Source of the DNA: an uncultured Eubacterium sp.
GTDB taxonomy: Bacteria > Bacillota > Clostridia > Lachnospirales > Lachnospiraceae
DNA: 63,713 nt
Reading direction: 5' to 3'
NCBI GenBank assembly: GCA_947089855.1
Contig: CAMUML010000021.1
Span: 1 to 63,713, forward strand
Below, one piece after another: positions 28,825-48,330 of the stretch. Numbering within the stretch: position 1 is the stretch's first letter; every line of letters starts with the position of its first letter. The position numbers were made by a program, and so were the translations under genes. Under the pieces are notes generated by a model, which saw only the letters and a program-made list of their open reading frames with translations, ran no database searches and had not been told where the DNA came from.

Positions 28825-29913
28825 ATGGATGACAGAATTATTTTGAGTATCTGTATACCAGTATATAATGGTGGTAACAGATTGGTCAAGAATATTTCCA
28901 ATATTTTAAAATATGAAAAGAATGATATTGAGGTTATAGTAAGTGATAATCAGTCAAATGATGGATCTATAGAGACGTTGAGACGCATAGAAGATAAGAG
29001 ACTAAAGATATTTGTTAATGAAGAAAATGTAGGGCCATTTAAAAATTGGTATCTGGCATTGAAAAGAGGAAAAGGGAAATATCTAAAAATACTTTTAGAC
29101 AGAGATGTTTTACAGGTAGAGATGCTGCCGGATTATATTAATATGATTAGAAATAAGGAATATGGTGTAATTCTTGATTGGTCAGGCAGATTAGGGAGTA
29201 GTTCCAATAGAGTATTAACAGAACGAGAAAAAATATTTTGGCTGGTGCAGTCAGAGCATCCTTCTGTGTGTACATATTTAAGGAATGCGTTTAAGGATAT
29301 AAAAGATGACGGTATTTATAACAAAGCTGCGAGAGGCAGCTGTAATGTATTCTGGGGAATTTCTATAGCGAGGAGCAGTTCTGTATTAATAAACTGCAGA
29401 TGTCCGATATTTATAGATGCTCAGGTGAATTTTTTTGTATTAACTTCTTCAAGAGTATGGGGTTATGCAGGTCGAATCAAGGGAGGTGGATTGGAACCTG
29501 TAGAATATGTGAGAAGGTTTTCTTTCTATTTGAATTATATTCTTTCATTGGATAATGATATTAGCAAAGAAAAGATTATAGGATTGTATGGGGGAATGCT
29601 GATATTTGTGTCTCCAAACTATCATAATCTTATTTGTTCGACTTCAATGAAACATAGATATCAGGTAATAGATAAGAATTATTCTTTGGACGAGTATACA
29701 AAGTTGCCATTTGGATTTTATAGAAAAATAAAAAAAATTTTAATGAAAAAAGGATTAATATCATTAGGGCTTTTATTCGATCTTTGGCTGGTGACCTTTG
29801 TGAATCATCTGCAATTTTGTAATAAAAATTGTAGTCAAATGGAATGGCATGTGCAATTAAACAATAAAATGATTAACTATATTAAGAAAAAAAGAAATTT
29901 ATTATATATGTAA
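28825..29913 (+). CDS. Glycosyltransferase family 2
   Basis: 362-residue GT-A fold glycosyltransferase. ILSICIPVYNGGNRLVKNIS opens the nucleotide-binding domain, VIVSDNQSNDGS is the family's central motif, and LLDRD near residue 91 is the probable metal-binding DXD equivalent. The C-terminal ~150 residues are basic and hydrophobic without an obvious multi-pass membrane domain. It probably adds a sugar to the surface glycan made by this island. AT-rich codon use (AGA, ATA) contrasts with genes upstream of 26 kb. Confidence 0.85.
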   Translation: MDDRIILSICIPVYNGGNRLVKNISNILKYEKNDIEVIVSDNQSNDGSIETLRRIEDKRLKIFVNEENVGPFKNWYLALKRGKGKYLKILLDRDVLQVEMLPDYINMIRNKEYGVILDWSGRLGSSSNRVLTEREKIFWLVQSEHPSVCTYLRNAFKDIKDDGIYNKAARGSCNVFWGISIARSSSVLINCRCPIFIDAQVNFFVLTSSRVWGYAGRIKGGGLEPVEYVRRFSFYLNYILSLDNDISKEKIIGLYGGMLIFVSPNYHNLICSTSMKHRYQVIDKNYSLDEYTKLPFGFYRKIKKILMKKGLISLGLLFDLWLVTFVNHLQFCNKNCSQMEWHVQLNNKMINYIKKKRNLLYM

Positions 29914-30629: not shown

Positions 30630-31412
30630 ATGAAAGTTGTAATTTTAGCAGGAGGGTTAGGAAGCAGAATCAGTGAAGAATCACAGATACGCCCCAAACC
30701 AATGATTGAAATTGGAGGTAAGCCAATCTTATGGCATATTATGAAACAATATTCACATTATGGGTTTCATGAATTTATTATTTGCTGTGGGTATAAAGGT
30801 GAAGTGATCAAAGAATACTTTGCCGATTATTATCTGCATGCATCTGATGTTACCTTTGATTTTACAAAAGAAAATCATATTGAAATTCATAATAATATTG
30901 CTGAACCGTGGAAAGTAACTGTGGTAGATACGGGCAAGGATTCTATGACAGGGGGTCGGCTGCTCCGGATTAAAAAATATATTACGAAAGGGGAGCGCTT
31001 TCTTATGACATATGGAGACGGGGTTTCAGACGTTGATTTGAAACAATTGATTCGATTTCATGAGAAACAGGGCTTATATGCAACCGTTACAGCGATCCAG
31101 CCAGGTGGAAGGTTTGGCGTTATGAATATTGATGAGCGGGAAGTTGTAAGGAGCTTTGAAGAGAAACCAAGGGAAGATGGAAATTGGATCAGCGGAGGTT
31201 TTTTTGTCTTGGATTATCCCGTTTTTGATTATATTGAGCATGGTGATATGACTATTTTTGAGCAAAGCCCGATGCAGAAGCTTGCGGCAGATGGACAGCT
31301 TGCGGCATATCGGCATAGGGGATTCTGGCATCCAATGGATACACTACGGGATAAAAATCAATTAGAAGCTTTATGGCAGAAAGAGAATCCGCCTTGGAAA
31401 GTATGGAAGTAA
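30630..31412 (+). CDS. rfbF: Glucose-1-phosphate cytidylyltransferase
   Basis: 260-residue nucleotidyltransferase making CDP-glucose from CTP and glucose-1-phosphate. It starts MKVVILAGGLGSRISEESQ with the following RPKPMIEIGGKPILWHIMKQ; RfbF-specific sequence includes YLHASDVTFDF and SGGFFVLDYPVFDYIE. The ATG at 30630 has TGAGG six bases upstream; an in-frame ATG at 30570 is less likely. Entry step of CDP-linked deoxysugar synthesis; the next enzyme, CDP-glucose 4,6-dehydratase, is at 40145. Confidence 0.94.
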   Translation: MKVVILAGGLGSRISEESQIRPKPMIEIGGKPILWHIMKQYSHYGFHEFIICCGYKGEVIKEYFADYYLHASDVTFDFTKENHIEIHNNIAEPWKVTVVDTGKDSMTGGRLLRIKKYITKGERFLMTYGDGVSDVDLKQLIRFHEKQGLYATVTAIQPGGRFGVMNIDEREVVRSFEEKPREDGNWISGGFFVLDYPVFDYIEHGDMTIFEQSPMQKLAADGQLAAYRHRGFWHPMDTLRDKNQLEALWQKENPPWKVWK

Positions 31413-31450
31413 GTTGAAGTATATGACTATACCAGAAGGAGGTATTCGGC

Positions 31451-32287
31451 ATGGGCTATTTTAATGAAAAAGAGGCAGCGGTATTTGCCAAAAGGGTCAG
31501 GATAGATGTTGCAAAAATTTTGGAAAAAACCAGAGATTCTCATATAGGCGGCGGATATTCTGCAATTGATATATTATCTGTATTGTACACAAGTGTGCTG
31601 AATGTAACTCCCAGAACTGTTGAGGAGGCAGACAGGGATATATTTATTTTGAGTAAAGGGCATATTGCAGCGAGTTTTTATACGGTGTTAGCGAATAAAG
31701 GGTTCATTTCAATGAAGGATTTGGATAATCATGTGTCAGATGGGAGTGTGTATGCTGGACACACGCGAAAATATCAAACACGCGGAGTAAGAGGGATAGA
31801 AATGTCTGCTGGTTCTTTGGGTCATGGTGCAAATGTTGGTTTGGGAATGGCTTATGCTAAAAGGGTGCGGGGTTTGGATGGCCATGTGTATGTACTGATG
31901 GGAGACGGAGAATGCAACGAAGGGTCTGTATGGGAGGCTGTAATGTTTGCGTCAAAACTTCGTTTGGGAAATATTACTTTTATAGTAGATAGAAATAGGC
32001 TTCAGTCATATGGTTGTGATGTAGAAGTCTGTAATATGGGGAGCCTTGCTGAGAAATTTTCAAGTTTTGGATGTGAAGTGTTAGAAATCAATGGTCATGA
32101 TTATTCAGAAATATATAGAGCATTAATGACTGGACGGAGCCGTAACAGTTCAGCACCGATTGTTATCATAGCTAACACTATCAAAGGAAAAGGAGTGTCA
32201 TTTATGGAGAATCGTTTGGAATGGCACTTTAAATCCCCGACAAAAGAGCAGTTGGATATTATTCAAAAGGAGCTTGAGGCAGAATGA
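31451..32287 (+). CDS. Transketolase, N-terminal (TPP-binding) subunit
   Basis: 278-residue N-terminal half of a split transketolase. It has HIGGGYSAIDILSVLY, FILSKGHIAASFY, SAGSLGHGANVGLGMA and the TPP/metal motif GDGECNEGSVWEA near residue 151. Split transketolases move two-carbon ketol units and occur in nucleotide-sugar clusters as well as in central metabolism. Strong AAGGAGGT upstream. Its position beside rfbF and the ATGA coupling to the C-terminal subunit suggest a dedicated biosynthetic role (inference). Confidence 0.92.
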   Translation: MGYFNEKEAAVFAKRVRIDVAKILEKTRDSHIGGGYSAIDILSVLYTSVLNVTPRTVEEADRDIFILSKGHIAASFYTVLANKGFISMKDLDNHVSDGSVYAGHTRKYQTRGVRGIEMSAGSLGHGANVGLGMAYAKRVRGLDGHVYVLMGDGECNEGSVWEAVMFASKLRLGNITFIVDRNRLQSYGCDVEVCNMGSLAEKFSSFGCEVLEINGHDYSEIYRALMTGRSRNSSAPIVIIANTIKGKGVSFMENRLEWHFKSPTKEQLDIIQKELEAE

Positions 32288-33198
32288 GAAAGACATTTGT
32301 CAATACGCTTACAGAATTATCACGTAAAGATGAAAAAGTAATGTGTGTTATTGGTGATACGGGATTTTCAGTATTTGAAGAATATGAACGAGAATTTAAG
32401 GAACGGTTTGTAAATGTAGGAATTGCAGAACAGAATTTTGTAAGTTTTGGTGCCGGGCTTGCCGCGATGGGGATGAAACCATTTATTTATAATGTGGCAA
32501 GTTTTATGTGTTATCGTGCGTTCGAACAAATTGAATTGGATGTATGCTATCAGGAAAATCCAGTAGTGCTTGTAGGTGTGGGTGGCGGGCATGCTTATGC
32601 AACAGCAGGTCCAACGCATCATGCGTATTGGGACATAGCGCTAATGACGCAGCTTCCGAATATGACGGTGTTGTGCCCAGCAGATCCCATTGAAATGCGA
32701 GAATGTGTAAAAGCTGCATATGAATTGCAAAAACCAGTGTATATTCGTATTGGGCGCAGTGTAGATCCGGTAATCCACAAAGAATCAATAAACTTTAAAA
32801 TTGGTAAAGGAATACAGATGGCATCTGGAGGAGATGCTGTACTGCTTGCAACAGGAACTGTTGTAAAAGATGCATTAAGGGCAGCAGAGTTATTGATAGA
32901 AAATGGAATACATGCGGCAGTTTACAGTATGCCAAGTATTAAACCGTTTGATGATCAGCTGATTTCAGAATTAGCAGACCAATATCAGGTGATATATACA
33001 ATGGAAGAACATAGCGTTAGGAGTGGTTTGGCAGATATGGTAAGGATTTCACTGTCAAATGTAGGTAAACAGGCGATTTCTGTGAGGCCAATAGGTTTTC
33101 CGGATACCTTTGCTCCGGTTACAGGCAGCAGAGAATATTTGAATGAATTGTATGGATTGGATGCACAGGCTGTTTGTAATGTTATTTTAGAAAAGTAA
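32284..33198 (+). CDS. Transketolase, C-terminal subunit
   Basis: 304-residue partner subunit carrying the pyrimidine-binding and C-terminal transketolase domains. GIAEQNFVSFGAGLAAMGMK contains the catalytic Glu, with later GPTHHAYWDIALM and PVYIRIGR. The ATG overlaps the stop of the N-terminal subunit (ATGA at 32284-32287), so the two are produced together. With the upstream gene it forms one functional enzyme; donor and acceptor are not evident from sequence. Confidence 0.92.
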   Translation: MRKTFVNTLTELSRKDEKVMCVIGDTGFSVFEEYEREFKERFVNVGIAEQNFVSFGAGLAAMGMKPFIYNVASFMCYRAFEQIELDVCYQENPVVLVGVGGGHAYATAGPTHHAYWDIALMTQLPNMTVLCPADPIEMRECVKAAYELQKPVYIRIGRSVDPVIHKESINFKIGKGIQMASGGDAVLLATGTVVKDALRAAELLIENGIHAAVYSMPSIKPFDDQLISELADQYQVIYTMEEHSVRSGLADMVRISLSNVGKQAISVRPIGFPDTFAPVTGSREYLNELYGLDAQAVCNVILEK

Positions 33199-33231
33199 AT
33201 GTGGCTGAATATAAGATTAAGCGGTTTGTCA

Positions 33232-33390
33232 ATGGAGAAAGTGGTTGCCTTGGGTGGTTCTGAATTTATAGGAAATAATATTTGTGGATACTTAATAAAA
33301 TATGGATATAATGTCATCAGTAAGTATATCACATCATTTTTAGGAAGACAGCATAAGAAATCTAAACTGAATTCTCACCGTAGGGCATGA
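33232..33390 (+). pseudogene. Truncated NAD-dependent epimerase remnant
   Basis: The ATG at 33232 opens MEKVVALGGSEFIGNNICGY followed by LIKYGYNV, an extended-SDR N-terminus with its Gly-rich loop. It then runs into unrelated sequence and stops. Only the first ~30 residues of the family remain, against about 300 normally. Confidence 0.65.
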
Positions 33391-33681
33391 TCCTGTTAGA
33401 AAGTTTAGCGGGTATTCATTGTATAAACATGTGTAATGAAGGAAGTTGAGACACGATTTTTAGGTACGGAAGATTTGCTATCATAGTTAAATAGAGGAGT
33501 TATAAGGCGTTATAAAGTAAATAAATCAAGAGGATGCTCTATAAATATACGTATTTTTATCTTAATCTGTACAAAATATGATGGCCGTCCTGCACTTTTT
33601 GCTCCGGTTTAAGAGTAACAATTTAAAGTAAGCCTTAAAATCACTGATTTGAGGCTTGATATTAATTAGGAAGGGAAAAAG
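33391..33681. other. Non-coding gap before FkbM gene
   Basis: No gene seen. An imperfect hairpin at 33632-33659 (AAGCCT pairing with AGGCTT, extended by AAAATC/GATTT) lies just before the ribosome site of the next gene and may be a leader or terminator structure. Confidence 0.45.
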
Positions 33682-34638
33682 ATGAATATAATAGAAAAGA
33701 AAGAAACATGGGTAGATGGAGTTGTTGGAGAGAAAAAACAGGAATTTATAAAAGAAATGTATGAACAATATCATCAAAGCCTGTTTGATTATTCACATAT
33801 GATAAAAGGTACAGATATAGAAAGGATAGAAATATCCATGGATAAAGTAGTAATGAGATTCAAAAGCAGTGGCTTAAGTTTTGTTTGCAGAGAGGGTGAT
33901 GAACGTTCTATGCCAATGGATACGCTCAATTTTGGAGAGTATGAAAAAAAAGAAACTGATACGATGTTAAATATTCTTTTGAGAATTGGCGGCGCAGATC
34001 GAGCAATGAATATTTTGGATATAGGAGCAAATATAGGATATACAACATGTCTTTTAGCTTCCAATTTTAGGAATGCATCAGTATTTGCATTTGAGCCAAT
34101 AAAACAAACTTATCTTGATTTGCTTGATAATATAAAATTAAATCAATTAAACAATATTATTGCATATAATTTAGGTTTATCCAATGAAAATAAAGATGTT
34201 GAGTTTTATTATTATTCAAATTGTGTTGCTAACACATCCATTACTAATTTGAGGCATACAGATAATTATATTAAAGTACCAGGTAAATTGATTTGTTTAG
34301 ATGATATAGAAGAATTAAAAGAAAAGACAATCGATTTTATAAAATGCGATGTAGAAGGTAATGAGTTATTTGTGATAAAAGGGGGAAGAAAGACAATTAG
34401 TCGAACTCGGCCAATTATTTTTATAGAAATATTGAGAAAATATGCAAAAGAGTTTAACTATTCTGCGAATGATGTTTGTAGCGAACTTAGAAACTTAGGT
34501 TATAATGCATATATAATTTCTGAAAATAGAAAATTGATAAAAATTGAAGAAATAACAGAACAAGAAAGAAATACAAATTTCGTTTTTTTGCATGCTGAGA
34601 AACATCGATTATTATTAGACGAAAAAGTAACATTATAA
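33682..34638 (+). CDS. FkbM family methyltransferase
   Basis: 318-residue SAM-dependent methyltransferase of the FkbM group. The SAM-binding motif NILDIGANIGYTTCLLA lies near residue 109, followed by VFAFEPIKQTYLDLLDNIKL and the conserved IDFIKCDVEGNELFVIKGG. FkbM proteins O-methylate sugars or polyketides. AGGAAGGG upstream of the ATG. First of three FkbM-type proteins in the island and the only one without the YGAG module. Confidence 0.87.
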   Translation: MNIIEKKETWVDGVVGEKKQEFIKEMYEQYHQSLFDYSHMIKGTDIERIEISMDKVVMRFKSSGLSFVCREGDERSMPMDTLNFGEYEKKETDTMLNILLRIGGADRAMNILDIGANIGYTTCLLASNFRNASVFAFEPIKQTYLDLLDNIKLNQLNNIIAYNLGLSNENKDVEFYYYSNCVANTSITNLRHTDNYIKVPGKLICLDDIEELKEKTIDFIKCDVEGNELFVIKGGRKTISRTRPIIFIEILRKYAKEFNYSANDVCSELRNLGYNAYIISENRKLIKIEEITEQERNTNFVFLHAEKHRLLLDEKVTL

Positions 34639-34689
34639 ATTATTAGATTATTATGGAAAGACATAGTAAAGAATAAGGTAATAGGAGAG

Positions 34690-35751
34690 ATGAGTATTCA
34701 AAAAAGCGGGTGGTACGAGGTTTTTGAAATATGTTCAAGCGGTTTAGAAGAAATAGAAAGTATTGTAGAAGAGGGAACATATTTAGTTACAGGAGCAAGT
34801 GGGAATATAGCAAAATATATTGTGGCATTTCTTTTGAAAAAATCTAATGTGAAAGTTATTGCGGTATGTCATGACGAAATAAGAGGAAAGGATGTATTTT
34901 CTGAATTTGTAAACAGTCCTAATTTAAGGATTATGGAACAGGATATTACAGTAAAATGGACATTAGAAGAGAAAGTTGATTTTATAATTCATGCAGCTGG
35001 AATTTGCAGTAATTATATTTGCAGAATGCGACCGATTGAAGTTTTAAATACAAATATAGTAGGGACGAATAATGTGTTGGAATTAGGGATGAGGTTAAAA
35101 GTAAAAAAGTTTCTTTTTATCAGTAGCGCATCTGTATATGGACGACTCGGCGAAACTATAGGTGGATTTGCTGAAAATTATAGAGGCTGTCTTGATTTTA
35201 CAAATATAGCAAATGTCTATGCTGTGAGCAAGCGTGCGGGTGAAGCATTATGTATAGCATGTAAGCAGCAGATGCCAGTTATTATTGTGCGTCCGTTTCA
35301 TATTATTGAACCAATGATGATGTTAGAAAAATCGAATGTACTGGGAGGGTTTTATTCAAGTTTATTGGCAAATTATAAAATTTTGTTAAATACAGACGGT
35401 AAACAAGAACGTAATTTTATTTGGATAATGGATCTTGTTAAAATTATATTTATTATACTAAATAAATTTGAGGATGGAGAGTATAACATTGGAAATCCTT
35501 ATGGAACATTAAGCATGTTTGAAATGGCTTCTCTGATGAAAGAAAAAATGACAGAAATCTTTCCTGATATGAAAAATGCAGAAGTTGCAGTATGTAGCAA
35601 ATTTTTAGCGAAAGAAAGTAATATGATTGATTTAGTTCCTGATTTGTCAAAAATGCTAGAGATTTGCAAGAGTTATAATATAGATTTTCTGGATCCAGAA
35701 CAAGCAATGTTATTGTGTATCAAACAAATAAGTAAGTTGGAAAATATATAG
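34690..35751 (+). CDS. NAD-dependent epimerase/dehydratase (extended SDR)
   Basis: 353-residue extended short-chain dehydrogenase. The cofactor loop VTGASGNIAKYI lies at residues 33-44, SSASVY carries the catalytic Ser, and YAVSKR near residue 177 gives the YxxxK pair. An extra ~30 residues precede the Rossmann fold. It probably epimerises or reduces a nucleotide sugar intermediate. AGGAG lies only a few bases before the ATG. The exact reaction is not predictable. Confidence 0.85.
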   Translation: MSIQKSGWYEVFEICSSGLEEIESIVEEGTYLVTGASGNIAKYIVAFLLKKSNVKVIAVCHDEIRGKDVFSEFVNSPNLRIMEQDITVKWTLEEKVDFIIHAAGICSNYICRMRPIEVLNTNIVGTNNVLELGMRLKVKKFLFISSASVYGRLGETIGGFAENYRGCLDFTNIANVYAVSKRAGEALCIACKQQMPVIIVRPFHIIEPMMMLEKSNVLGGFYSSLLANYKILLNTDGKQERNFIWIMDLVKIIFIILNKFEDGEYNIGNPYGTLSMFEMASLMKEKMTEIFPDMKNAEVAVCSKFLAKESNMIDLVPDLSKMLEICKSYNIDFLDPEQAMLLCIKQISKLENI

Positions 35752-35814
35752 AATATGGCATATCAGAATCTGTAGTATATTATCATTTATAAGTATTTTA
35801 TGGAGGGATTACAT

Positions 35815-36011
35815 ATGAATACATTGAAATTTGACGATTCCGTAAAAGACCACTTCCGCATTTTCATAATACGGTTCTGCTTTATCTGGAAAGATATACT
35901 ATAGAACAGATATCTGAAGTTCTCCATGTCTCTCTCTGGACAGTCAGTTATCATATTTTAAGTTACGAAAAAGTTGTGTTGGGGATATTCTATTGTCAAG
36001 ATTCTCGATAA
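35815..36011 (+). pseudogene. Helix-turn-helix transposase remnant (IS630-like?)
   Basis: ATG 35815 begins MNTLKFDDSVKDHF; after a frameshift near 35860 the sequence reads TVLLYLERYTIEQISEVLHV then SLWTVSYHILSYEK, a helix-turn-helix like that at the N-terminus of IS630-type transposases. No catalytic domain follows. The remaining gap to 36233 has no recognisable gene. Family assignment is tentative. Confidence 0.5.
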
Positions 36012-36233
36012 TACTAAGATTTACCATGTTAAATTGTTGGTAATCAGCAAAGAATTAAAAGATACATTCTATACAGACGATAGTTTGAATTATAACAATG
36101 ATATGAAAATATTTGATGATATTCAAATTTAGTGTTTTATGAATAATCATTAGATGTGATGAAAGTTTAAGCTGAATGACAAAAGATCTTTTCAAAAACT
36201 TTTAAAGTTAAAAGAAAGGTGGTTGGTAATATT

Positions 36234-37196
36234 GTGAAAATGTTAAACTATTTCGAGAGGAATATATCTCAAATCGGTTTAGGAACGGGGCGCTTTGGTA
36301 CAAGAATTGAAAAGGAATCAGCATTTGAGATGTTGGATTATTTCTATCATAATGGCGGTAATGTAGTAGATACAGCTCGAAATTATTATGAATGGGTTGA
36401 GAACGGCCGGGGAATGAGTGAGCGGTGCATAGGCGAGTGGATGGCTGATCGGGGCAATCGCAATGAAATCTTTATTTGTACAAAAGGTGGTGTGAGAAAT
36501 AAGGGCAATGTATTTATCAGTAATTTGTCAAGAGATTCTTTACAAGTTGAGGTAAAAGAGAGCCTAGAGGCACTGCAGACAGATTATATAGATATCTATC
36601 TGCTTCATCGAGATGAGCCGGGACGTGCTGTAGAAGAAATTGTCGAGACAATGCAGGTAATTAAAGAAATAGGCAACATATCAACGATTGGGATAGCAAA
36701 CTGGAAGATAGATAGAATTATTGCAGCAAATGAATATGCTGCCAAACATAAGATGGAACCATTTCGGATTATCCAGACATGGTGGTCATTGGCCGAATAT
36801 ACAGAGAGTATGTGGGATGATCCGACTACAACGCATATGAATAAAGAAACTTATGAATATATGTTGCACCATCAATTGCTAGGAATGGCATATACTTCTC
36901 AGTGTAAAGGGTTTTTTCAAAAGGCGTTTTATCAGGGGATAGATCATATAGATTCTTTTCTAAGGAAGAGAATTGCTACACCAGTAAATATAAAAAAGTT
37001 AGAATATATCAAAAATTACTGTCAGAAAAATAAGGTGTCACCAACAGCAGTAGTAAATGGATATATAACATCGAATCCATTGGATGGAATTGCATTAATA
37101 AGTGTATCTAGTATGGAACAGCTGAAAGATATTGTGAGTGTCAGCGACTATTTATTAAGTGAAGAAGTTATAAATGAAATAGATGCTATTGTTTAG
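36234..37196 (+). CDS. Aldo/keto reductase
   Basis: About 320-residue NADPH-dependent reductase. IGLGTGRFGT, NVVDTARNYYEW (Asp/Tyr), IFICTKGG (Lys), IDIYLLHRDEPG (His) and GIANWKIDRI give the catalytic Asp-Tyr-Lys-His set and the barrel core. I place the start at GTG 36234, with AAAGGTGG upstream; GTG 36219 and ATG 36240 are alternatives. Within this cluster it probably reduces a keto group of the deoxysugar or its side chain, an inference from context. Confidence 0.87.
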   Translation: MKMLNYFERNISQIGLGTGRFGTRIEKESAFEMLDYFYHNGGNVVDTARNYYEWVENGRGMSERCIGEWMADRGNRNEIFICTKGGVRNKGNVFISNLSRDSLQVEVKESLEALQTDYIDIYLLHRDEPGRAVEEIVETMQVIKEIGNISTIGIANWKIDRIIAANEYAAKHKMEPFRIIQTWWSLAEYTESMWDDPTTTHMNKETYEYMLHHQLLGMAYTSQCKGFFQKAFYQGIDHIDSFLRKRIATPVNIKKLEYIKNYCQKNKVSPTAVVNGYITSNPLDGIALISVSSMEQLKDIVSVSDYLLSEEVINEIDAIV

Positions 37197-37220
37197 CATA
37201 ACTGGATTAGGGAGGAAATA

Positions 37221-38300
37221 ATGCGTTTAACTCCGCAGACAAATATGATTATATATGGGGCTGGTTATTGCGGGGCGATGTTTGTTGAACTGTTGCTGGC
37301 AAATAGTATGCATCCATTATGTGTTTTTGACAAAGATAAAGAGAAACAGGCGAAAAAAGTTTTTGGAGTAGAAATTGAAAAGCCACATTTCAGGCAGGCT
37401 GATATAGTAATTGTTGCATTATTGATACGGGGAAAGGCTTATGCTTCGATTAAGCATTTTCTTCTAAAATTAGGATATGTAGAAGAGCAGGTAGTACATA
37501 TTTATGATTTGGAAAATCAAAGGAAATTGTTTGATAAACAAAAATTAATTATTAAGCCGAATCTGACAGTTGTTGAAAGGTATGCAGAGCAATGGGAATG
37601 GCTGAATTGTGTTTTATCAGATGAAGAATCCAAAAGGGTATTATTTGCAGCAAAGCAGTTTTTAAAAGGTGATTCTGCTGTAAAATTTCCTGTGCATTCG
37701 ATAGAAGAACAGTATTTTGCATATGATATTTATCAAAAAATAGAGGACGAAATAGTAATTGAGTGCGGTGGTTTCAAAGGAGAAGTTATGAGAATATTCT
37801 TTGAAAATAATGGGGGAAGATTTTCACATTATACAATTATAGAACCAGATGCAGGGTATAATATTTTTATAGAGGCAAATGCAAGAGGATACCGAAGGGA
37901 GGATATTGAGATTTTAAATTGCGCACTATCAGACAAGAGTCAGGAAATGTTTGTGACAAACTATATGAATATGAACTCTATTGTATCAGGAAATAAAACA
38001 ATGTATAGTATGCAAAAAGTGCAGGCAGCATCTTTGGACAAGCTATTGCCGGATGGAAAATGTACGTTTTTAAAAATAGATATTGAAGGATATGAATTGA
38101 AAATGTTGCAGGGAGCAAAGAATATCATTCAGCATAATAAGCCGGTAATTGCAATTGCGGCATATCATCATGAGAGCGATTTGTTTGATATTGCAAAGAA
38201 ATTATTGGAATATAATTCAAAATATAATTTATTTTTGCGGAGCTATATGAATTATCAGGAAATGATATTATATGCGATTCCTGAGGAAAGAATTTCATAA
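37221..38300 (+). CDS. YGAG-module FkbM-type methyltransferase
   Basis: 359-residue two-domain protein. Residues 8-90 form a small Rossmann-like module (MIIYGAGYCGAMFVELL, LCVFDKDKEKQAKKVFGVEI, ADIVIVALL). Residues ~160-355 are FkbM-like, with VIECGGFKGEVMRIFF, TIIEPDAGYNIFIEAN, and LKIDIEGYELKMLQGAK. The SAM loop reads ECGGFKGE, diverging from the usual D-x-G-A form. GGGAGG upstream of ATG. Same architecture as the protein at 42474. Confidence 0.8.
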   Translation: MRLTPQTNMIIYGAGYCGAMFVELLLANSMHPLCVFDKDKEKQAKKVFGVEIEKPHFRQADIVIVALLIRGKAYASIKHFLLKLGYVEEQVVHIYDLENQRKLFDKQKLIIKPNLTVVERYAEQWEWLNCVLSDEESKRVLFAAKQFLKGDSAVKFPVHSIEEQYFAYDIYQKIEDEIVIECGGFKGEVMRIFFENNGGRFSHYTIIEPDAGYNIFIEANARGYRREDIEILNCALSDKSQEMFVTNYMNMNSIVSGNKTMYSMQKVQAASLDKLLPDGKCTFLKIDIEGYELKMLQGAKNIIQHNKPVIAIAAYHHESDLFDIAKKLLEYNSKYNLFLRSYMNYQEMILYAIPEERIS

Positions 38301-38361
38301 CAGCATGTCTCAGTATATTATGCATGCTGTAACATATAAAAAATGAAAAAGGGGATGGAAT

Positions 38362-40128
38362 ATGACAGTATCAGAATATATATTTAATTATTTATATGAA
38401 AAAGGCTGCACACGTATCTATATGGTGTCCGGAAGTTCAGCTATGTGGCTGACGGATGCACTCTACCGAGATAAAAATATGGAGGCAATTTGTACAAATC
38501 ATGAACAGGCAGCTGCAATGGCGGCAGATGGATATGCAAGAGTAAATGGTGTTCCAGGAGCATGTCTTGTAACAATCGGGCCGGGAGTAACGAATGCAAT
38601 TACCGGCGCAGCACAGGCGTATTTTGATTCATCTCCGATTTTTATTATATCCGGGCAGGCAAATTCACGTCTGCTACAGTATGCAAAGGAAAGCGGAATC
38701 CGTCAGAATGCATGTCAGAGTATGATTGTTGAGCCAGTTGTAAAAAGCATTACTAAGTATTGTAAGACAGTTATGGATGCTTCTGAAATTGCTGCAATTA
38801 TGGCGGAAGCTTATGATGCGGCAATGTCCGGGCGGAAGGGTCCGGTATGGATTGATGTACCCGTTGATATTCAGAACCATCAGATACCGGAACATGCTTT
38901 TGAAGTAAGCAGTTGGAAAGAAGATACATTGGGAAACGCTGCATCTGTATTCAACTGCGTGGAATATGATACAGTAGTAGAATTGCTGAAAACATCAGAA
39001 AAGCCATTGATTTTGGCAGGATATGGAGTTCGTTCTTCACAGGCGACGGATATAATGGAATTATTTGCTGAAAAATATAATATTCCAGTTGTGACTTCTC
39101 GTGGAGGCATTGATGTGATTGCTTCCGATCATCCATTGTATGTTGGGCGTCCTGGGGGATATGGTGACCGCGCATCCCATTTTGCTATTCAGGAATGTGA
39201 TCTGCTGTTTATTTTAGGAAGCAGGTTATCTGTTTCTACTATAGGATACTATCCGGATCGGTTTGCGGGAAATGCAGTGAAAATTATGGTTGATATTGAT
39301 GAAAAGGAATTAGAGCGTGATTCGGTTCCGATTCAATATAAATACCAAATGGATGTGAAATGCTTCTTAGAAAGGTTAATGAGCCGACTGGACGTAGCAG
39401 GCAGGCTGGAGTATATGTCGGATCATGAATCATGGATCACGCATTGCCAGGAGAATAAGGAGAAATATCCAGTTGTATTGAAAGAATATGAACAGCAGAA
39501 TCCGTTAAATAATTATTATTTTACATCGGTTTTATCCGAACTGGCACCTGCAGAGGCCAATATTATTGTAGATACTGGCAGTGTATATTGTACTGTATCC
39601 CAAAGCTGGAAAGTAAAAAAGGGACAGCGTTACATAGCTTCAGGCGGATTCTCCTGTATGGGATCCTGGGCTGCGGCATTGGGGACGATTCAAGATGGCA
39701 GAGCTGTAATTGCATTGTCCGGGGATGGAAGCGTTCAAATGAATATTCAGGAATTTGCCACACTTAAATATAATCAGATGCCAGTAAAGTTATTTGTGTA
39801 CAATAACCACGGATATATGCTGATACGCCACAATCAGCATAATTATATGAATGACCGGTTTTTGGGAGTTGGACCAGACAGTGGCGTGGAAACTCCGGAC
39901 TTTTGTGAGGTAGCAAATGCATATGGGGTGAAGGCGGTCAGAATTACAGCTGCTGATGATATTTCAGCTAAGATCCGGGAGGTTTTAGATGCGGATGAAC
40001 CAGTGGTATGTGAAGTGATGGTGCAGGAATTTGCAGAAATTATTCCTAAAATTGCCTCACGTGTAATGCCGGATGGTTCATTAAAAGCTGCTGAATTTGA
40101 TGACCTATATCCATTTATAAGTGAATAG
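38362..40128 (+). CDS. Acetolactate-synthase-like TPP-dependent enzyme
   Basis: 588-residue full-length three-domain TPP enzyme of the acetohydroxyacid synthase superfamily. TNHEQAAAMAADGYARVNG has the catalytic Glu at residue 48; GDGSVQMNIQEF (residue ~454) to YNNHGYM is the TPP/Mg motif. Relatives in nucleotide-sugar clusters, such as YerE, transfer an acetyl unit from pyruvate to a 4-keto sugar. The gene immediately precedes CDP-glucose 4,6-dehydratase, so a sugar-branching role is favoured over valine synthesis. No ilvN or other branched-chain genes are near. Confidence 0.85.
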   Translation: MTVSEYIFNYLYEKGCTRIYMVSGSSAMWLTDALYRDKNMEAICTNHEQAAAMAADGYARVNGVPGACLVTIGPGVTNAITGAAQAYFDSSPIFIISGQANSRLLQYAKESGIRQNACQSMIVEPVVKSITKYCKTVMDASEIAAIMAEAYDAAMSGRKGPVWIDVPVDIQNHQIPEHAFEVSSWKEDTLGNAASVFNCVEYDTVVELLKTSEKPLILAGYGVRSSQATDIMELFAEKYNIPVVTSRGGIDVIASDHPLYVGRPGGYGDRASHFAIQECDLLFILGSRLSVSTIGYYPDRFAGNAVKIMVDIDEKELERDSVPIQYKYQMDVKCFLERLMSRLDVAGRLEYMSDHESWITHCQENKEKYPVVLKEYEQQNPLNNYYFTSVLSELAPAEANIIVDTGSVYCTVSQSWKVKKGQRYIASGGFSCMGSWAAALGTIQDGRAVIALSGDGSVQMNIQEFATLKYNQMPVKLFVYNNHGYMLIRHNQHNYMNDRFLGVGPDSGVETPDFCEVANAYGVKAVRITAADDISAKIREVLDADEPVVCEVMVQEFAEIIPKIASRVMPDGSLKAAEFDDLYPFISE

Positions 40129-40144
40129 TAAGGAAGAACTTTAT

Positions 40145-41179
40145 ATGAAGCCTGAGTTTTGGAAGGGGAAAACGGTTTTGATTACCGGCCATAATGGATT
40201 TAAGGGGACATGGATCAGTAAATGGCTGGATATGATGGGAGCAAATGTAATTGGTATTTCATTATGTCCAGATGAAAAAAATGAATTTGATAAGCTGACA
40301 TTTAGCAGCTCCTATAGAAATCTAGAAATAGATATCCGTGATTTTCAGAAGCTGAAAATAATACATAAATATTCGCCGGAAATAGTGATACATCTGGCTG
40401 CTCAGGCAATTGTAAAAATTGCGAAGGAACAGCCAATAGACACATTTGAAATAAATGTGATGGGGACAGTGAATCTTTTAGAACAATTGCGAAGCGTGTA
40501 TTCAATAAAATCGATTGTAGTCGTAACTTCAGATAAGGTTTATGAAAATAAGGAGCATATGATTGCTTATATAGAGAATGACGGGCTTATGGGAAATGAG
40601 CCTTATTCGTGCAGTAAAGTAGCGGAAGAACAGGTTGCGAAGGCTTATTTTGAGTCTTATTTTAAAACAGCGGCTGTTGGTGTTGCTACAGCCAGGGCAA
40701 GCAATGCTTTTGGCGGTGGAGATTATCATTTTGACAGGCTGATTCCTTATCTGGAAGCGTGTGCTTTTCAAGATGTAATACCGGAGATCCGGAATCCAAA
40801 TGCAATACGGCCATGGCAGTATGTGCTGGATTTATTAGCTGGATATTTGACGCTGGCTGAACATTTGTACGAGACTCCAAATGATTCATGGCAGAGCTAC
40901 AATTTTGGACCGGAGAAGTCTGAATTATTTACAGTTGGCGAGATGGCGGATATTATTTGCAAAAATGCAGTAGAAAGTTCTTTAAAGCAGAATTTTTATG
41001 AAGCGGAACTTCTGATGATTGATTCAGAAAAAAGCAGGGAAAAGCTGGGATGGATGCCTATATATAATGTTAAGGATGGTTTAGTTCAGACAAATTATTC
41101 GTATCAGCAATATTTTGAGCATGGAAATTCAGACAGGATTTATGAACATGCAATTGAGGATTATATGAGGAGATTATAG
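40145..41179 (+). CDS. rfbG: CDP-glucose 4,6-dehydratase
   Basis: About 344-residue extended SDR that converts CDP-glucose to CDP-4-keto-6-deoxyglucose. ITGHNGFKGTWISKWL is the RfbG-type cofactor loop (residues 13-28), HLAAQAIVKIAKEQP and TSDKVYEN are typical, and PYSCSKVAEEQ gives the YxxxK pair. RASNAFGGGDYHFDRLIPY also matches the family. The ATG at 40145 is preceded by AAGGAAG; a GTG at 40121 overlaps the upstream stop. It pairs with rfbF at 30630. Confidence 0.93.
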   Translation: MKPEFWKGKTVLITGHNGFKGTWISKWLDMMGANVIGISLCPDEKNEFDKLTFSSSYRNLEIDIRDFQKLKIIHKYSPEIVIHLAAQAIVKIAKEQPIDTFEINVMGTVNLLEQLRSVYSIKSIVVVTSDKVYENKEHMIAYIENDGLMGNEPYSCSKVAEEQVAKAYFESYFKTAAVGVATARASNAFGGGDYHFDRLIPYLEACAFQDVIPEIRNPNAIRPWQYVLDLLAGYLTLAEHLYETPNDSWQSYNFGPEKSELFTVGEMADIICKNAVESSLKQNFYEAELLMIDSEKSREKLGWMPIYNVKDGLVQTNYSYQQYFEHGNSDRIYEHAIEDYMRRL

Positions 41180-41184
41180 GAATT

Positions 41185-42477
41185 ATGGGGGAAAAAAGAA
41201 TTGCTATTCTGGGTGCGGGACCAGCTGGAATATCTGCTGCATATTATTTGAAGAGCCAGGGAGTGTCTGCGGATATTTATGAAAAAAGGGATGATTACGG
41301 CGGTTTATGCGGCAGTTTCAAAGTAGGCAGTTATCGATTTGATCGATTTGCGCATATGACATTTTCAAAGAATCCTGATGTTAATGCATTATTGGAAAAG
41401 AAAACAAAGTATCTGACTCACGTACCGGAAGCCTATAATTTTTATCAGGGAAAATGGATACGCAATCCAGTGCAGAATAATTTGATCGGTTTGGATGTAG
41501 AGGAACGGATTAAAGTAATTGAAGGATTTTGCCAAAGACCGGAAATAGCAGAACCAAAGAATTATAAGGATTGGCTACGGAAATCATATGGAGAATATTT
41601 TACAGACAATTTTACGAGCAGGTATACGAGAAAATATTGGACGGTAGAACCAGAACAATTAGAAACTGTATGGGTGCAGAACCGGATGTATGTGCCTGAT
41701 ATTAGAGAAGTTCTGCGTGGGGCAATGACAGATGAGACGCCGAATGTGCATTATTCGAAAGAGATGCATTATCCGGTGAATGGGGGCTTTCAGGGATTTT
41801 TGGAGCCACTTGCGCGGGGGCTGGATATCCATTATGGAAAAATGGTGGAGCAAATTGATTTTAAGCAAAAAAGAATAAAGTTTTCAGATGGAAATACCGT
41901 TGAATATGATCAGGTAATCAGCACGCTGCCGCTGTCCGATCTACCCCAAATAGTCAAGTATCTTCCAGAATTTGTGAGTGAAGCGGCTGAGAAACTGGAT
42001 TATACATCTGGGTATATGATTTCGATTGGGTTTAATCGAAAAATCCATTTTCCAAGTATATGGTTTTACATTTATGATGAGGATATACTGCCAGCACGTA
42101 TTTATTTTGCGGATCAAAAGTCTCCCAATAATGCGCCGGAAGGATGCAGCGCTCTGCAGGCAGAAGTATATGTATCAAAATACAGGCAGCTGCGGGTGTC
42201 TGTTGAAGAATTGAAAGAAAACATTATTAAGCAATTGTTGAAGTTGGATTTGTTTACGATGAAAGATATTGTGGTAACTGATATTCGTTTTGAACAGTAT
42301 GCAAATATTATGTTTACGTCTGAGATATATAAAGCGCGGACTGTGGTAAAAACTTACTTAGAGGAACAGGGAGCAGTTGTTGCCGGACGGTTTGGAGAAT
42401 GGGATTATCTGTGGTTAGAACAGAGTCTTTTGAGCGGCAGGTGTGCGGCAGAAAAAATATTGGAGAAAAACAGATGA
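41185..42477 (+). CDS. FAD-dependent oxidoreductase, UGM/protoporphyrinogen-oxidase-like
   Basis: 430-residue flavoprotein. ILGAGPAGISAAYYLKSQG (residues 9-27) is the dinucleotide-binding loop, EKRDDYGGLCGSFKVG resembles the GG-doublet of UDP-galactopyranose mutases and amine oxidases, and the C-terminal FGEWDYLWLEQSLLSG closes the FAD site. Relatives in glycan clusters act on sugar rings or glycan precursors. Whether it is a mutase, an oxidase or a desaturase here is open. Its stop overlaps the next gene by ATGA. Confidence 0.78.
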   Translation: MGEKRIAILGAGPAGISAAYYLKSQGVSADIYEKRDDYGGLCGSFKVGSYRFDRFAHMTFSKNPDVNALLEKKTKYLTHVPEAYNFYQGKWIRNPVQNNLIGLDVEERIKVIEGFCQRPEIAEPKNYKDWLRKSYGEYFTDNFTSRYTRKYWTVEPEQLETVWVQNRMYVPDIREVLRGAMTDETPNVHYSKEMHYPVNGGFQGFLEPLARGLDIHYGKMVEQIDFKQKRIKFSDGNTVEYDQVISTLPLSDLPQIVKYLPEFVSEAAEKLDYTSGYMISIGFNRKIHFPSIWFYIYDEDILPARIYFADQKSPNNAPEGCSALQAEVYVSKYRQLRVSVEELKENIIKQLLKLDLFTMKDIVVTDIRFEQYANIMFTSEIYKARTVVKTYLEEQGAVVAGRFGEWDYLWLEQSLLSGRCAAEKILEKNR

Positions 42478-43667
42478 AACTGATAAACAAAATATTCGAT
42501 GAATTTCATAATGTTTGTGATGATATTGAACTTTCAATTGATGATATGAAAAAGGAATTAGAAAAATATCATGGAAAAGTATGTCTCTATGGAGCAGGCA
42601 GTGCAGGAATTGCTTTTTTATATTATCTGAGGCGTATACAGATTGAGCCGGCATATTTTGTAGATAGAAATTCTGTTCGATGGGGTACTGTCTGTGAAAG
42701 GGTAGAAGTTATTGGACCAGAGCAAATAGCTGACCGGGTGGGACAAGATGCACTTGTAATTGTTACGATTAATACGGATGGAAAACGGTATTGCAAAAGT
42801 TTTGCAGAAGAATTGCAGAGAGGCGGGCATACAGGTGTTCATCGGATGTTGCACGATTTGGGAATTGAGAATGTTGTGGATTATACGTTTTTTCGCAGAT
42901 GTCACGAACTGTTTCAGGGAGATCCCTATAACATGCCGTCTTGTTCAGATGTATATTTGATGGATCAACATGTTGAGGAAATGCAGGAAGTTTATGAGCA
43001 TCTGGAAGATGATCTGTCAAAGGAAATTTATGAGAAAATATTACGTTTTCGTTTAATTGATGATAGTATTTCTGTGCCTACTATGCCACAGGATAAACAA
43101 TACTTTGAATATGGGTTTTATCCAAAAAGGAATGATGAAATTTTTGTAGACTGCGGTGCATTTAATGGCATCAGTGCAAGAATGTTTTTTCAGGAAAATC
43201 ACAATCAGTTTGACGGCTATTATGGATTTGAGCCAGATCCAGTTAATTATGCGGTATTAAGAGATTATGTTCAGTCACTTCCGTTAGAAATGCAAAGTAA
43301 GATCAAAATTATGAACCAAGCTGTTTATGATTCAGATAAAGGAATGCTATTATATGAGTTAAATGGCCCAGGGAGTTTTGTTGCTGATATTGGAAAGACG
43401 AGAATTGCTACTGTTACGATTGATCAGGTACTTCATGGGAGTAGGGCAACCTATATAAAAATGAATATAGAGGGCAGTGAACTGCCAGCATTACGCGGTG
43501 CAAAAAATACGATTGAGAAGAATCATCCACGACTTGCAATCGCAGGTTATCATAAAACTTGGGATTTGTGGGAAGTGCCGTTTCAAATCCTACAGGCAGA
43601 TCCAACATATAAGATATATCTGCGGTCATATATGAACCATATTTCATTTGTATATTATGCAATTTGA
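42474..43667 (+). CDS. YGAG-module FkbM-type methyltransferase
   Basis: 397-residue protein with the YGAG module at residues ~33-110 (KVCLYGAGSAGIAFLYYL, PAYFVDRNSVRWG, ALVIVTINTDG). A helical linker follows, then an FkbM domain: IFVDCGAFNGISARMFF near residue 222, YYGFEPDPVNYAVL, and YIKMNIEGSELPALRGA. The start at 42474 (ATGA overlap with the flavoprotein stop) is preferred over an in-frame ATG at 42399 that would read through the upstream gene. Probably methylates a sugar; the N-terminal module may bind a nucleotide or a partner. Confidence 0.8.
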   Translation: MKLINKIFDEFHNVCDDIELSIDDMKKELEKYHGKVCLYGAGSAGIAFLYYLRRIQIEPAYFVDRNSVRWGTVCERVEVIGPEQIADRVGQDALVIVTINTDGKRYCKSFAEELQRGGHTGVHRMLHDLGIENVVDYTFFRRCHELFQGDPYNMPSCSDVYLMDQHVEEMQEVYEHLEDDLSKEIYEKILRFRLIDDSISVPTMPQDKQYFEYGFYPKRNDEIFVDCGAFNGISARMFFQENHNQFDGYYGFEPDPVNYAVLRDYVQSLPLEMQSKIKIMNQAVYDSDKGMLLYELNGPGSFVADIGKTRIATVTIDQVLHGSRATYIKMNIEGSELPALRGAKNTIEKNHPRLAIAGYHKTWDLWEVPFQILQADPTYKIYLRSYMNHISFVYYAI

Positions 43668-43692
43668 TTTTAAGAAAGATGAGGATGTAGTA

Positions 43693-44796
43693 ATGATTAT
43701 ACGGGCAAAGACAAAAACGTTATTCAGTGGAAAGAAATTGACACAAAGGCAGCAGGCAAATACAGACATTAATATAGCGGAATTGGAACAGGGAAAACAG
43801 ATCTTGCAGTCATATCCAAGAAGGCTGGTGTTTGAATTAACAAATGCCTGCAATTTAAATTGTGTGATGTGTGGAAGGAATGCCGCTGATTTCAAGCCCA
43901 CAAGATTTGATATGGAAGTATTCCGCAGTTTTGAGCCATTGATGGACATTGTGGAAGAAGTAACATTGATGGGATGGGGAGAGCCGACGATCCATCCATC
44001 CTTTATAGAGATGCTTGAAATCATCAATAGGCATAGTGCTAGAAAATATTTTTGTTCAAATGGAATGAATTTAAAAAAGATCAAGGATGCTATTTTTGAT
44101 TATAATGTTGACGTTTTTGCAGTAAGTTTAGATGGTGCAACGGATGAAACGAACGGGCGGATTCGCAGGGGTTCCAAGATAGAGCAGGTTACAGAAGATT
44201 TAAAGGATATTGTCCGGCTGAAAAAAGAGCGTGGATTGAAATATCCATGGATCAATTTTGTCTTTTGTGCCATGCAGTCTAATATTCGTGAATTGCCAGA
44301 TTTAGTCCGCCTGGCTGCTGAAATAGGCATAGAAGAAGTAAAAGTTGTATATTTGACGGTATTTGGCGAGGATCTTATGAATGAATCATTATGGGGACAT
44401 GAACGTTTGGTGCATGAAGTATTTGAGGAAGCTATTAAGGTGGGGGATGATCTTGGAATTATTTTAAAACTGCCGCATTATGCAGGAGAAGATGAGGCAG
44501 GCGATCATTTTCATAAAGATTGTTTTGTAGCGTGGAGAGATTTCTTTTTAGGCTCGGATGGATTCGTGCGTCCATGTATGTCTACTCCAGTACAGTTTTT
44601 CCGGTATGATAGGAATAAGCCTTTTATGGAAATGTGGAATTCGCCTGAGTACCAGAACTACCGTCGGATTGTAAATGATCAGGAGAAAATGGATGCTCCG
44701 TGCAGGAGGTGTTATCAGTCATCTCATTGTAATTGGAATCGGAAAGAATCATTTATACAGGTAGGAGAGATGTTTTCGCCGGACTGGGAAAATTGA
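43693..44796 (+). CDS. Radical SAM protein with C-terminal SPASM domain
   Basis: 367-residue radical SAM enzyme. CNLNCVMC places the cluster cysteines at residues 53, 57 and 60, GWGEPTIHP and FAVSLDGATDETNGRIRRG are the following barrel motifs. A second set of cysteines near the end (KDCFVAWRDFFLGSDGFVRP, CRRCYQSSHCNW) forms a SPASM-type auxiliary-cluster domain. Start at ATG 43693 with GATGAGG upstream; ATG 43648 would overlap the previous gene. Sugar dehydrogenation, epimerisation or C-methylation are all conceivable; no substrate can be named. Confidence 0.87.
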   Translation: MIIRAKTKTLFSGKKLTQRQQANTDINIAELEQGKQILQSYPRRLVFELTNACNLNCVMCGRNAADFKPTRFDMEVFRSFEPLMDIVEEVTLMGWGEPTIHPSFIEMLEIINRHSARKYFCSNGMNLKKIKDAIFDYNVDVFAVSLDGATDETNGRIRRGSKIEQVTEDLKDIVRLKKERGLKYPWINFVFCAMQSNIRELPDLVRLAAEIGIEEVKVVYLTVFGEDLMNESLWGHERLVHEVFEEAIKVGDDLGIILKLPHYAGEDEAGDHFHKDCFVAWRDFFLGSDGFVRPCMSTPVQFFRYDRNKPFMEMWNSPEYQNYRRIVNDQEKMDAPCRRCYQSSHCNWNRKESFIQVGEMFSPDWEN

Positions 44797-45082: not shown

Positions 45083-46309
45083 ATGAATATTGGACTAAAT
45101 ATAACACGCTATTTTGTAAAATATGCATATGTCTTGTTGGAGTCGATTATTGAAAATAACAAACAAGAAGAAATACATTTATTCATATTTTCTACCAATA
45201 TAGAGGAATCTGATTTATATTTTATGCGTGAGTTAATGGAAAAGCATAATGGTACCATTGATTTAATATCGATTGATATAGAGCGTATAAAGGAGGTTTT
45301 TATAAAACCATGTGCACTGCCGCTTGAACTGCATACACATTATTTTCAAATTCATACCCTGCCGGATGGGATAGACCGTATATTAATTATGGATGGTGAT
45401 ATGATTGTAAAAAAATCTCTGAAAGAGTTTTATGAAATGGATTTTGGGGATAATTATGTAATCTGTCTGGATGGCGCGTGCATAAATCATGAGCTAAATG
45501 ATTTTTATGATAGATTTGTTGAAATGGGTGTCACACCCTTTAGCACGGTTTTTGCTTTGTATAATGTGAAGAAGATAAAGGAGGATTTTTCATTCGAAGA
45601 TATATTACAGGCAAATAATACTGTTTTAGCAACATTCAATTATTCAAATGAAGAATTTGGCTTTGGTATACTTTTTAATGGAAAAGAGGTTTATGTCCCA
45701 GAAATGAAGTATGGATTTTATATAAGCCCACAAAATGAGAAGAAACATTCTGGGGAAGAATTATCAAAATATGAAGAGGAAGCAGTTGCAATCCATTATT
45801 TTCAGTGCCATCCATGGGAGCCTAAAATTGGTATGTTGCCGATGCATTCCTATTGGTGGGAATATGCAAAGAATACGCCATATTATGAGGAATTGAAAGC
45901 AGATTTTTGGACATATTGGAAAAGTTTTCGGAGTAAATTGCTGACTGATATGGCCGTGTCGGTATTATTTGAGTATAAATTTCCATGGAGTCAGATTGAG
46001 GCTGGAAGCAAGATTATGATCTATGGGGCAGGGGATGTGGGAAAGAGTCAGATTCGCCAAATGCGTTTAACGGAATATAGCTGTGTTAAGGCAGTTATAG
46101 ATAAAAGGGCAGCTAGACTGGGAGATGCGGTAGAGGGTATTCCTGTCATATCAATGGAAAATTTGAAAGAAATTTATCACGGTGAGAAAATTGTAATAGG
46201 AATACTGAGGGAAGAAATCCGCTTGGATATAAAAGCCTCTTTGATTCAGATGGGAATTCCAAGAGAGAATATTGTGTGGAATTATGAAGTAAGAAATAAA
46301 AGTTTATAG
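45083..46309 (+). CDS. Family 8 glycosyltransferase with C-terminal YGAG module
   Basis: 408-residue protein. Residues 1-~280 are a GT8 retaining glycosyltransferase (SIIENNKQEEIHLFIFSTN, and ILIMDGDMIVKK with the metal-binding DGD near residue 103, CHPWEPK near 250). Residues ~307-400 are the YGAG Rossmann-like module (SKIMIYGAGDVGKSQIRQM, AVIDKRAARLGDAVEGIPVI, KIVIGILREEIRL). This is the only protein here with the module at the C-terminus. Likely adds a hexose to the island's glycan. Last gene of the glycan island. Confidence 0.85.
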   Translation: MNIGLNITRYFVKYAYVLLESIIENNKQEEIHLFIFSTNIEESDLYFMRELMEKHNGTIDLISIDIERIKEVFIKPCALPLELHTHYFQIHTLPDGIDRILIMDGDMIVKKSLKEFYEMDFGDNYVICLDGACINHELNDFYDRFVEMGVTPFSTVFALYNVKKIKEDFSFEDILQANNTVLATFNYSNEEFGFGILFNGKEVYVPEMKYGFYISPQNEKKHSGEELSKYEEEAVAIHYFQCHPWEPKIGMLPMHSYWWEYAKNTPYYEELKADFWTYWKSFRSKLLTDMAVSVLFEYKFPWSQIEAGSKIMIYGAGDVGKSQIRQMRLTEYSCVKAVIDKRAARLGDAVEGIPVISMENLKEIYHGEKIVIGILREEIRLDIKASLIQMGIPRENIVWNYEVRNKSL

Positions 46310-46884: not shown

Positions 46885-46924
46885 AGGATTTGTGGTAGTT
46901 AGAAGTAGCCTTTGGGTTCACGCT

Positions 46925-48243: not shown

Positions 48244-48284
48244 ATCTTCACCTCAAATTTAATATTCCTTTTTTTACTTTATCT

Positions 48285-48304: not shown

Positions 48305-48330
48305 TCCTAAGGGCAAGGGTTTTAACCCCA

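Follow-up and report, generated by a model that had tools for sequence, protein, structure and literature searches.

Why should a single CDP-deoxysugar cluster carry two different thiamine diphosphate (ThDP) enzymes? The question is raised by a gene island on contig CAMUML010000021.1 of an uncultured Eubacterium sp. (assembly GCA_947089855.1; "the window" is the whole stretch analysed, 63,713 nucleotides), where rfbF and rfbG stand together with a split transketolase (TK) and with an acetolactate-synthase-like enzyme, here called the TPP (thiamine pyrophosphate) enzyme. As judged from sequence and structure comparison, the TPP enzyme is a YerE-like carboligase and not IlvB. Both ThDP enzymes most likely branch CDP-ketosugars, perhaps one molecule twice; we infer the donors and the product. 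What is new here is that a YerE-like enzyme is recurrently paired with a second ThDP enzyme in CDP-sugar clusters. The genes at the centre of the question are the following:

30630..31412, plus strand: rfbF, glucose-1-phosphate cytidylyltransferase (TIGR02623, 415 bits, cut-off 300)
31451..32287, plus strand: N-terminal half of the split TK, ThDP-binding (Transketolase_N, PF00456, 117 bits)
32284..33198, plus strand: C-terminal half of the split TK, with the altered loop VGGGHAYATAGPTHH (Transket_pyr and Transketolase_C, PF02779 and PF02780)
38362..40128, plus strand: YerE/JanthE-like ThDP carboligase, as assigned from PDB match, tree, residues and fold (PF02776, PF00205 and PF02775)
40121..41179, plus strand: rfbG, CDP-glucose 4,6-dehydratase (TIGR02622, 342.5 bits, cut-off 278)

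The rfbF open reading frame (ORF) opens at 30570, and the ATG of MKVVILAGG is at 30630. A preliminary description of the locus had placed the split TK and the acetolactate-synthase-like enzyme in one cluster, and the ORFs and domains are as it gave them. It had also assigned CDP-4-keto-6-deoxyglucose synthesis to rfbF and rfbG; both proteins score above their NCBIfam equivalog cut-offs, so this compound is the expected intermediate. Neither of the two outcomes that it named as refuting its reading came about, since the TPP enzyme does not fall with IlvB and the TK is not the sole copy in the genome; the co-occurrence survey that it proposed turned out strongly positive.

For that survey, a named scan with an alignment of the TPP enzyme and two peptide patterns gave the best 80 of 307 loci (L numbers are our locus labels): 37 clade loci, in which the TPP enzyme is at least 54% identical to that of the window, 28 sister loci and 15 more distant ones. 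By record title the clade loci are mostly from Lachnospiraceae and other Clostridia, with one Muribaculaceae metagenome-assembled genome, two Endomicrobium and one Spirochaetia bacterium; 31 of the 37 have rfbF or rfbG. Counting within ~10 kb, we found a second ThDP enzyme in 29 of the 37, a count made with some queries taken from clade loci themselves, which could favour the clade. In 19 loci this enzyme was a TK. Seven loci had no TK but a second decarboxylase-type enzyme (L130, L145, L147, L149, L153, L157 and L158; three of these also have an HMGL-type aldolase), and the remaining three, L129, L132 and L168, had an E1 alpha/beta pair. Fourteen of the TKs are of the window type, or type A (L127, L128, L135, L136, L138-L144, L155, L164 and L206), and five are of other types (L146, L148, L150, L154 and L156). 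L146, where the TK is accompanied by a second decarboxylase-type gene, was counted under TK, and at the ends of their loci L127 and L140 show the C-terminal TK half alone and L136 a partial N-terminal half. Pairing was far rarer elsewhere: 4/28 in the sister clade (~45% identity; a TK in 3), 0/15 in the more distant loci and 0/48 TPP loci in a control sample from the order (50 places minus the window and L070), 38 of which have rfbF or rfbG.

From relative to relative the second enzyme switches between the TK, decarboxylase and E1-dehydrogenase superfamilies. On the 38-tip TPP subtree the label of this second slot requires 15 changes by parsimony, against a mean of 20.5 and a minimum of 13 in shuffles. 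One Parablautia muri contig holds both L142 (type-A TK) and L168 (E1 pair), and one Lachnospiraceae contig holds L128 (type-A TK) and L148 (another TK type); a single strain can carry a pair of these islands that differ in their second ThDP enzyme.

All three TPP_enzyme domains (N, M and C) are found in the TPP enzyme by Pfam. Its best sequence match in the PDB is JanthE (8rph, 310 bits), followed by acetohydroxyacid synthase (AHAS) at 234 bits, and JanthE also ranks first when the structure is compared in fold searches; the IlvB of the same genome matches AHAS, with 468 bits. In a tree rooted on this IlvB and AHAS the TPP enzyme lies outside IlvB, and it keeps the JanthE residues Y268, Y297, H494 and K567. 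Its gene sits in a CDP-deoxysugar cluster, and no AHAS regulatory-subunit domain was found among the Pfam-scanned island genes. The YerE/JanthE-like placement is based on bit scores, residues, tree, fold and context taken together.

The two TK halves overlap by 4 bp, and their best PDB matches are 6yak, the N-chain of a split TK (198 bits), and 6yaj (179 bits) for the N- and C-terminal halves, respectively. Besides its altered loop, the window TK has a one-residue deletion in the loop GD-TGFSV, as seen in the motif alignment. The housekeeping acceptor/phosphate-loop motifs (of the THAG..VGEDG.[ST]HQ and DADL..ATKT types) are lost, and the ThDP- and donor-binding motifs SHIGG, SKGH, GDGECNEG, GIAEQN, THH and EWH are kept. 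We take the replaced positions to be those at which E. coli TK contacts the sugar phosphate and the acceptor, namely His461, Asp469 and the Ser385 loop. The housekeeping loop is missing from 25 of 26 cluster TKs, and L127 lacks the region. In a tree of 32 concatenated TKs out of 36 rows (L126, L127, L136 and L140 left out), the window type, the L148 type, L115, L121 and the aldolase-linked TKs form one group of 20 (ultrafast bootstrap 88) apart from the housekeeping group, and the TKs of L146 and L156 were recruited separately. The 16-kb stretch of L121 holds neither rfbF nor rfbG.

The genome itself encodes three split TKs, that of the window included. The one on contig 71, with the loop THAGISVGEDGASHQ, adjoins a transaldolase gene (PF00923, 210 bits) and is the housekeeping copy. 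The one on contig 23 (L068, 8352-10101), of the altered-loop kind, belongs to a separate glycan-like cluster. Its neighbours there are two radical SAM genes, a kinase/cytidylyltransferase, an RmlD-like gene and LicD. A search for how common the window-type TK is gave matches at E 1e-72 or better in 0/396 other genomes of the family and 1/390 other genomes of the class, the single match being, by its coordinates, locus L144 of R. hungatei.

Two loci have a TK with no TPP gene found beside it. One is the congener locus L115, which reads rfbF-rfbH-TKN-TKC-SDR-GT2 (SDR, short-chain dehydrogenase/reductase; GT2, family 2 glycosyltransferase), with no TPP gene found in the stretch; the other is L126. 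In L076, for example, a YerE-like gene occupies the place that the TK has in L115, which suggests that a TK can take the branching role.

How might two such enzymes work together? A 2025 review, in its accessible part, names three superfamilies as ketone-accepting: TK, decarboxylase and E1-dehydrogenase (PMC12247030). Because the YerE-like enzyme is paired with a second ThDP enzyme, and because this second enzyme is exchanged among these same superfamilies, we tentatively favour successive action of both enzymes on one molecule. The island would be a surface-glycan module making an unusual branched CDP-6-deoxysugar. The first step is strongly indicated by family: from glucose-1-phosphate, RfbF and RfbG would make CDP-4-keto-6-deoxyglucose, and in this strain no C3 deoxygenation would follow. 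No DegT/RfbH-type domain was found among the 15 island genes scanned with Pfam, and none of 20 matches to RfbH (NF011936) in the genome passes the cut-off of 423 bits (best 190 bits, in an assembly that is 89.7% complete), in agreement with the preliminary description, which had noted the absence of rfbH-type genes. RfbH was seen in two of the 15 loci with a window-type TK, the window included. C4-branched sugars that keep the C3 oxygen are known, a 3-O-methylated one being described for Rhodopseudomonas palustris in the accessible part of a 2023 review (PMC9912281).

In a second step the YerE/JanthE-like enzyme would, judging by the characterised members of its family (PMC12247030), put the acyl unit of a 2-oxo acid on a ketone of the sugar, which would thereby gain a tertiary alcohol and, on its branch, a new ketone. 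The split TK would attach a hydroxyacetyl unit, again at a ketone of this CDP-sugar; our best guess is that the second carboligase uses the ketone made by the first, and the two steps could come in either order. Finally, the aldo/keto reductase and the SDR would reduce the remaining ketones, a flavoenzyme resembling UDP-galactopyranose mutase (UGM) would alter the ring size, FkbM enzymes would methylate, and the GT2 and family 8 (GT8) glycosyltransferases would transfer the sugar. The preliminary description had thought of an octose-type product; a hexose becomes an octose by one C2 addition, and two would yield a decose-type sugar. That the pathway is conserved as a double C-branching of a CDP-6-deoxy-4-ketosugar to a doubly branched, decose-type product, with the YerE-like enzyme constant and the second enzyme swapped, is possible though doubtful. 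If the second-enzyme exchange is what it seems, different donor units would be plugged into one scaffold. The other genes of the island, which spans ~28.3-46.3 kb on the plus strand with its ORFs intact and at the coordinates described earlier, are:

28825..29913, plus strand: family 2 glycosyltransferase (PF00535)
33199..33390, plus strand: short ORF resembling, by eye, the start of an SDR gene, a possible remnant (no Pfam match)
33682..34638, plus strand: FkbM-family methyltransferase (PF05050)
34690..35751, plus strand: extended SDR of the NAD-dependent epimerase/dehydratase family, candidate ketoreductase (PF01370)
36219..37196, plus strand: aldo/keto reductase, candidate ketoreductase (PF00248)
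37221..38300, plus strand: FkbM-family methyltransferase (PF05050)
41185..42477, plus strand: UGM-like flavoprotein (PDB 4dsg, a UGM, 113 bits)
42399..43667, plus strand: FkbM-family methyltransferase (PF05050; start as in the ORF list, the true start being probably later)
43648..44796, plus strand: radical SAM/SPASM protein (PF04055 and PF13186)
45083..46309, plus strand: family 8 glycosyltransferase (PF01501)

The SDR, the aldo/keto reductase and the flavoprotein that had been attributed to the cluster are all present, the flavoprotein lying just past the end that the preliminary description had given for the cluster. Relatives of this flavoprotein occur in 10 of the 15 type-A TK loci (window counted) and in 0/23 other clade loci (p = 6e-6), and its likeness to UGM hints that the branched sugar changes ring size. 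A DegT aminotransferase (400 bits) has a similar distribution (6/15 type-A loci, 0/23 others). A sugar C-methyltransferase (PF08484) was found in 5/5 non-type-A TK loci and 3/7 second-decarboxylase loci; it stands beside the second ThDP enzyme in L145-L150, L154 and L156, suggesting that the branched sugar may be further C-methylated there. Aldo/keto reductase relatives, 53-63% identical, are present in 9/37 clade loci. Radical SAM/SPASM relatives are present in 19/37, at 81-87% identity in 13 and 53-76% in 6, and in these 13 of the 37 relatives the radical SAM gene travels with the TPP gene; there the TPP enzyme itself is only 59-66% identical. The closest named family of the radical SAM protein is TIGR04317, at 153 bits far under the cut-off of 380. 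The TK gene follows rfbF by 42 bp in the window, and matches to rfbG and TK are 65 bp apart in L128 and 29 bp apart in L142.

The island also stands out in composition: GC content is 0.30-0.40 in each of the nine 2-kb windows between 28 and 46 kb, and 0.41-0.54 in the rest. Its gene set was found again around relatives in other genomes, beyond chance. The short ORFs at 33199-33390, 47230-47850 and 48331-48828 gave no Pfam match and look, by eye, like SDR or transposase remnants. Reverse-strand ORF fragments at 46600-48900, at the downstream island edge, also look transposase-remnant-like by eye (two were tested, without a Pfam match), and some island spacers, again by eye, resemble gene remnants.

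Several observations pull against successive branching by a YerE-like enzyme and a TK. The node that joins JanthE in the TPP tree has a support of 0.607, and identity gives no separation (31.3% to JanthE, 31.2% to the genome's own IlvB and 30.0% to AHAS). JanthE V121, P293, S498 and F564 are replaced by C118, S292, N494 and I560, and the cofactor motif is GDG rather than CDG. Eight of the 37 clade loci (L131, L133, L134, L137, L151, L152, L159 and L183) have no second ThDP enzyme within ~10 kb. One of them begins near a contig edge. Genome searches turned up an E1-beta-type match on the contig of L131, ~12 kb upstream; for L151 they gave matches of the E1-beta and decarboxylase types at 26-30 kb upstream, and for the remaining six nothing comparably near. 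Fisher's test gives p = 2.6e-7 for 29/37 vs 4/28 and 8.6e-16 for 29/37 vs 0/48, values that ignore relatedness, some loci even sharing a contig (L128/L148 and L142/L168). One E1 beta subunit, from one locus, scores above the cut-off of the ordinary pyruvate dehydrogenase E1-beta subfamily. Nor is the altered loop confined to CDP clusters: four of the nine further genome TKs in the alignment (L068, L118, L120 and L124) share it, so loss of the housekeeping loop marks a wider set. No rfbG was found in the stretches of L115 and L126, and the TK of L126 lies in two frames. Finally, the island may be partly decayed, and in none of the 15 type-A loci does the TK adjoin the TPP gene, the distance between them being 2.2-9.4 kb.

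This last spacing would also fit a scheme in which CDP-4-keto-6-deoxyglucose is split between two separate branched sugars, one with an acetyl-type and one with a hydroxyacetyl-type branch, destined for two places in the glycan. Each enzyme can be found without the other, the TPP enzyme in 48/48 control loci and the TK in L115 and L126, which favours such a division. We consider it a fair rival but the less likely one: the window-type TPP enzyme is coupled to a second ThDP enzyme far more often than other TPP enzymes of this kind (29/37 vs 0/48), the swap for another ThDP type in most relatives fits one required shared step, and two rfbG copies (150 bits or more) were found in just 1/37 clade loci.

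Quite improbable, in our view, is that the TK leaves the nucleotide sugar alone and supplies the YerE-like enzyme with its donor, a small ketose or hydroxy-2-oxo precursor. To our knowledge, TK chemistry gives no 2-oxo acid as a direct product, and a TK that supplies the donor sits poorly with the TKs of L115 and L126, which have no YerE-like gene, and with the replacement of the TK by other ThDP carboligase types in relatives. Donor genes do travel along: in the sister clade a 4-hydroxy-2-oxovalerate-type aldolase gene precedes the TPP gene, in most loci together with an acylating aldehyde dehydrogenase gene, and ErwE takes 4-hydroxy-2-oxo acids according to the accessible part of PMC12247030. 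In L173, L182 and L185, however, a TK is found alongside these donor genes. In L070/L185, L173 and L182 a single CDP-sugar cluster holds the TK and the TPP enzyme together with an acylating aldehyde dehydrogenase and a 4-hydroxy-2-oxo acid aldolase.

That the two enzymes are simply an IlvB/AHAS and a pentose phosphate pathway TK caught in the island by chance is highly improbable. The best NCBIfam names are indeed acetolactate synthase, at 346 bits where the cut-off is 538, and transketolase, none of them reaching its cut-off, and the folds are the same. JanthE-first sequence and structure matches, the tree, the residues and the match of the genome's own IlvB to AHAS contradict the former, however; the contig 71 TK beside its transaldolase, the motif loss, the TK tree and the rarity of the window-type TK in other genomes contradict the latter.

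Successive branching of one CDP-ketosugar remains our preferred reading, and, if true, it would mean that split TKs branch surface-glycan sugars in Clostridia and other phyla, beyond Streptomyces antibiotics. According to the accessible part of PMC12247030, TKs are proposed to branch ketosugars although none is known to do so in vitro, and the 13 further sugar-branching TK candidates that it lists are all from Streptomycetes and all untested. The loci described here offer another candidate set, in anaerobes that include some named strains; these TKs are paired with a YerE-like enzyme, and their motif change predicts that the acceptor is altered. They would make TK acceptance of keto sugars testable and suggest that bacterial surfaces carry branched sugars that may be undescribed; moreover, carboligases that accept ketones are wanted as biocatalysts for tertiary alcohols. 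Among the papers listed by our literature searches, none besides PMC12247030 deals with a TK in combination with CDP-sugars or branched sugars; the genome mining of Krug et al. 2024, which that review cites, may already include some of the loci. The same review, in its accessible part, mentions aurantose, a branched sugar of Spirochaeta aurantia (PMC12247030), for which we found no structure for comparison.

Compared with known systems, the window enzyme resembles the YerE-like lyases (YerE of Yersinia pseudotuberculosis, ErwE and JanthE) in being a three-domain ThDP enzyme with CDP-glucose cytidylyltransferase and dehydratase genes alongside; it differs in being paired with a TK and is 31% identical to JanthE, the one sequence compared. 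The acceptor of YerE is CDP-3,6-dideoxy-4-ketoglucose (PMC12247030, accessible part), and the yersiniose A pathway has RfbH before branching. This genome, 89.7% complete, has no RfbH above cut-off, and with RfbH absent the acceptor here would keep its 3-OH, unlike that of YerE. The split TKs of the miharamycin and amipurimycin clusters, likewise proposed to branch ketosugars, are alike by layout and description (a split TK in a nucleotide-sugar cluster), whereas the window TK belongs to CDP-sugar glycan clusters of Clostridia and others and has a YerE-like partner. The E1 alpha/beta pairs of L129, L132 and L168 resemble, by superfamily, the alpha-keto acid dehydrogenase 2 type of aldgamycin and kibdelomycin; here they stand beside a YerE-like enzyme in CDP-sugar clusters, with none in the window. 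Finally, the split TK of Carboxydothermus hydrogenoformans (6yaj/6yak), the best PDB match of both halves, shares the two-chain layout; its loop reads THAGLTVGEDGASHQ, whereas the window TK has VGGGHAYATAGPTHH and the one-residue deletion.

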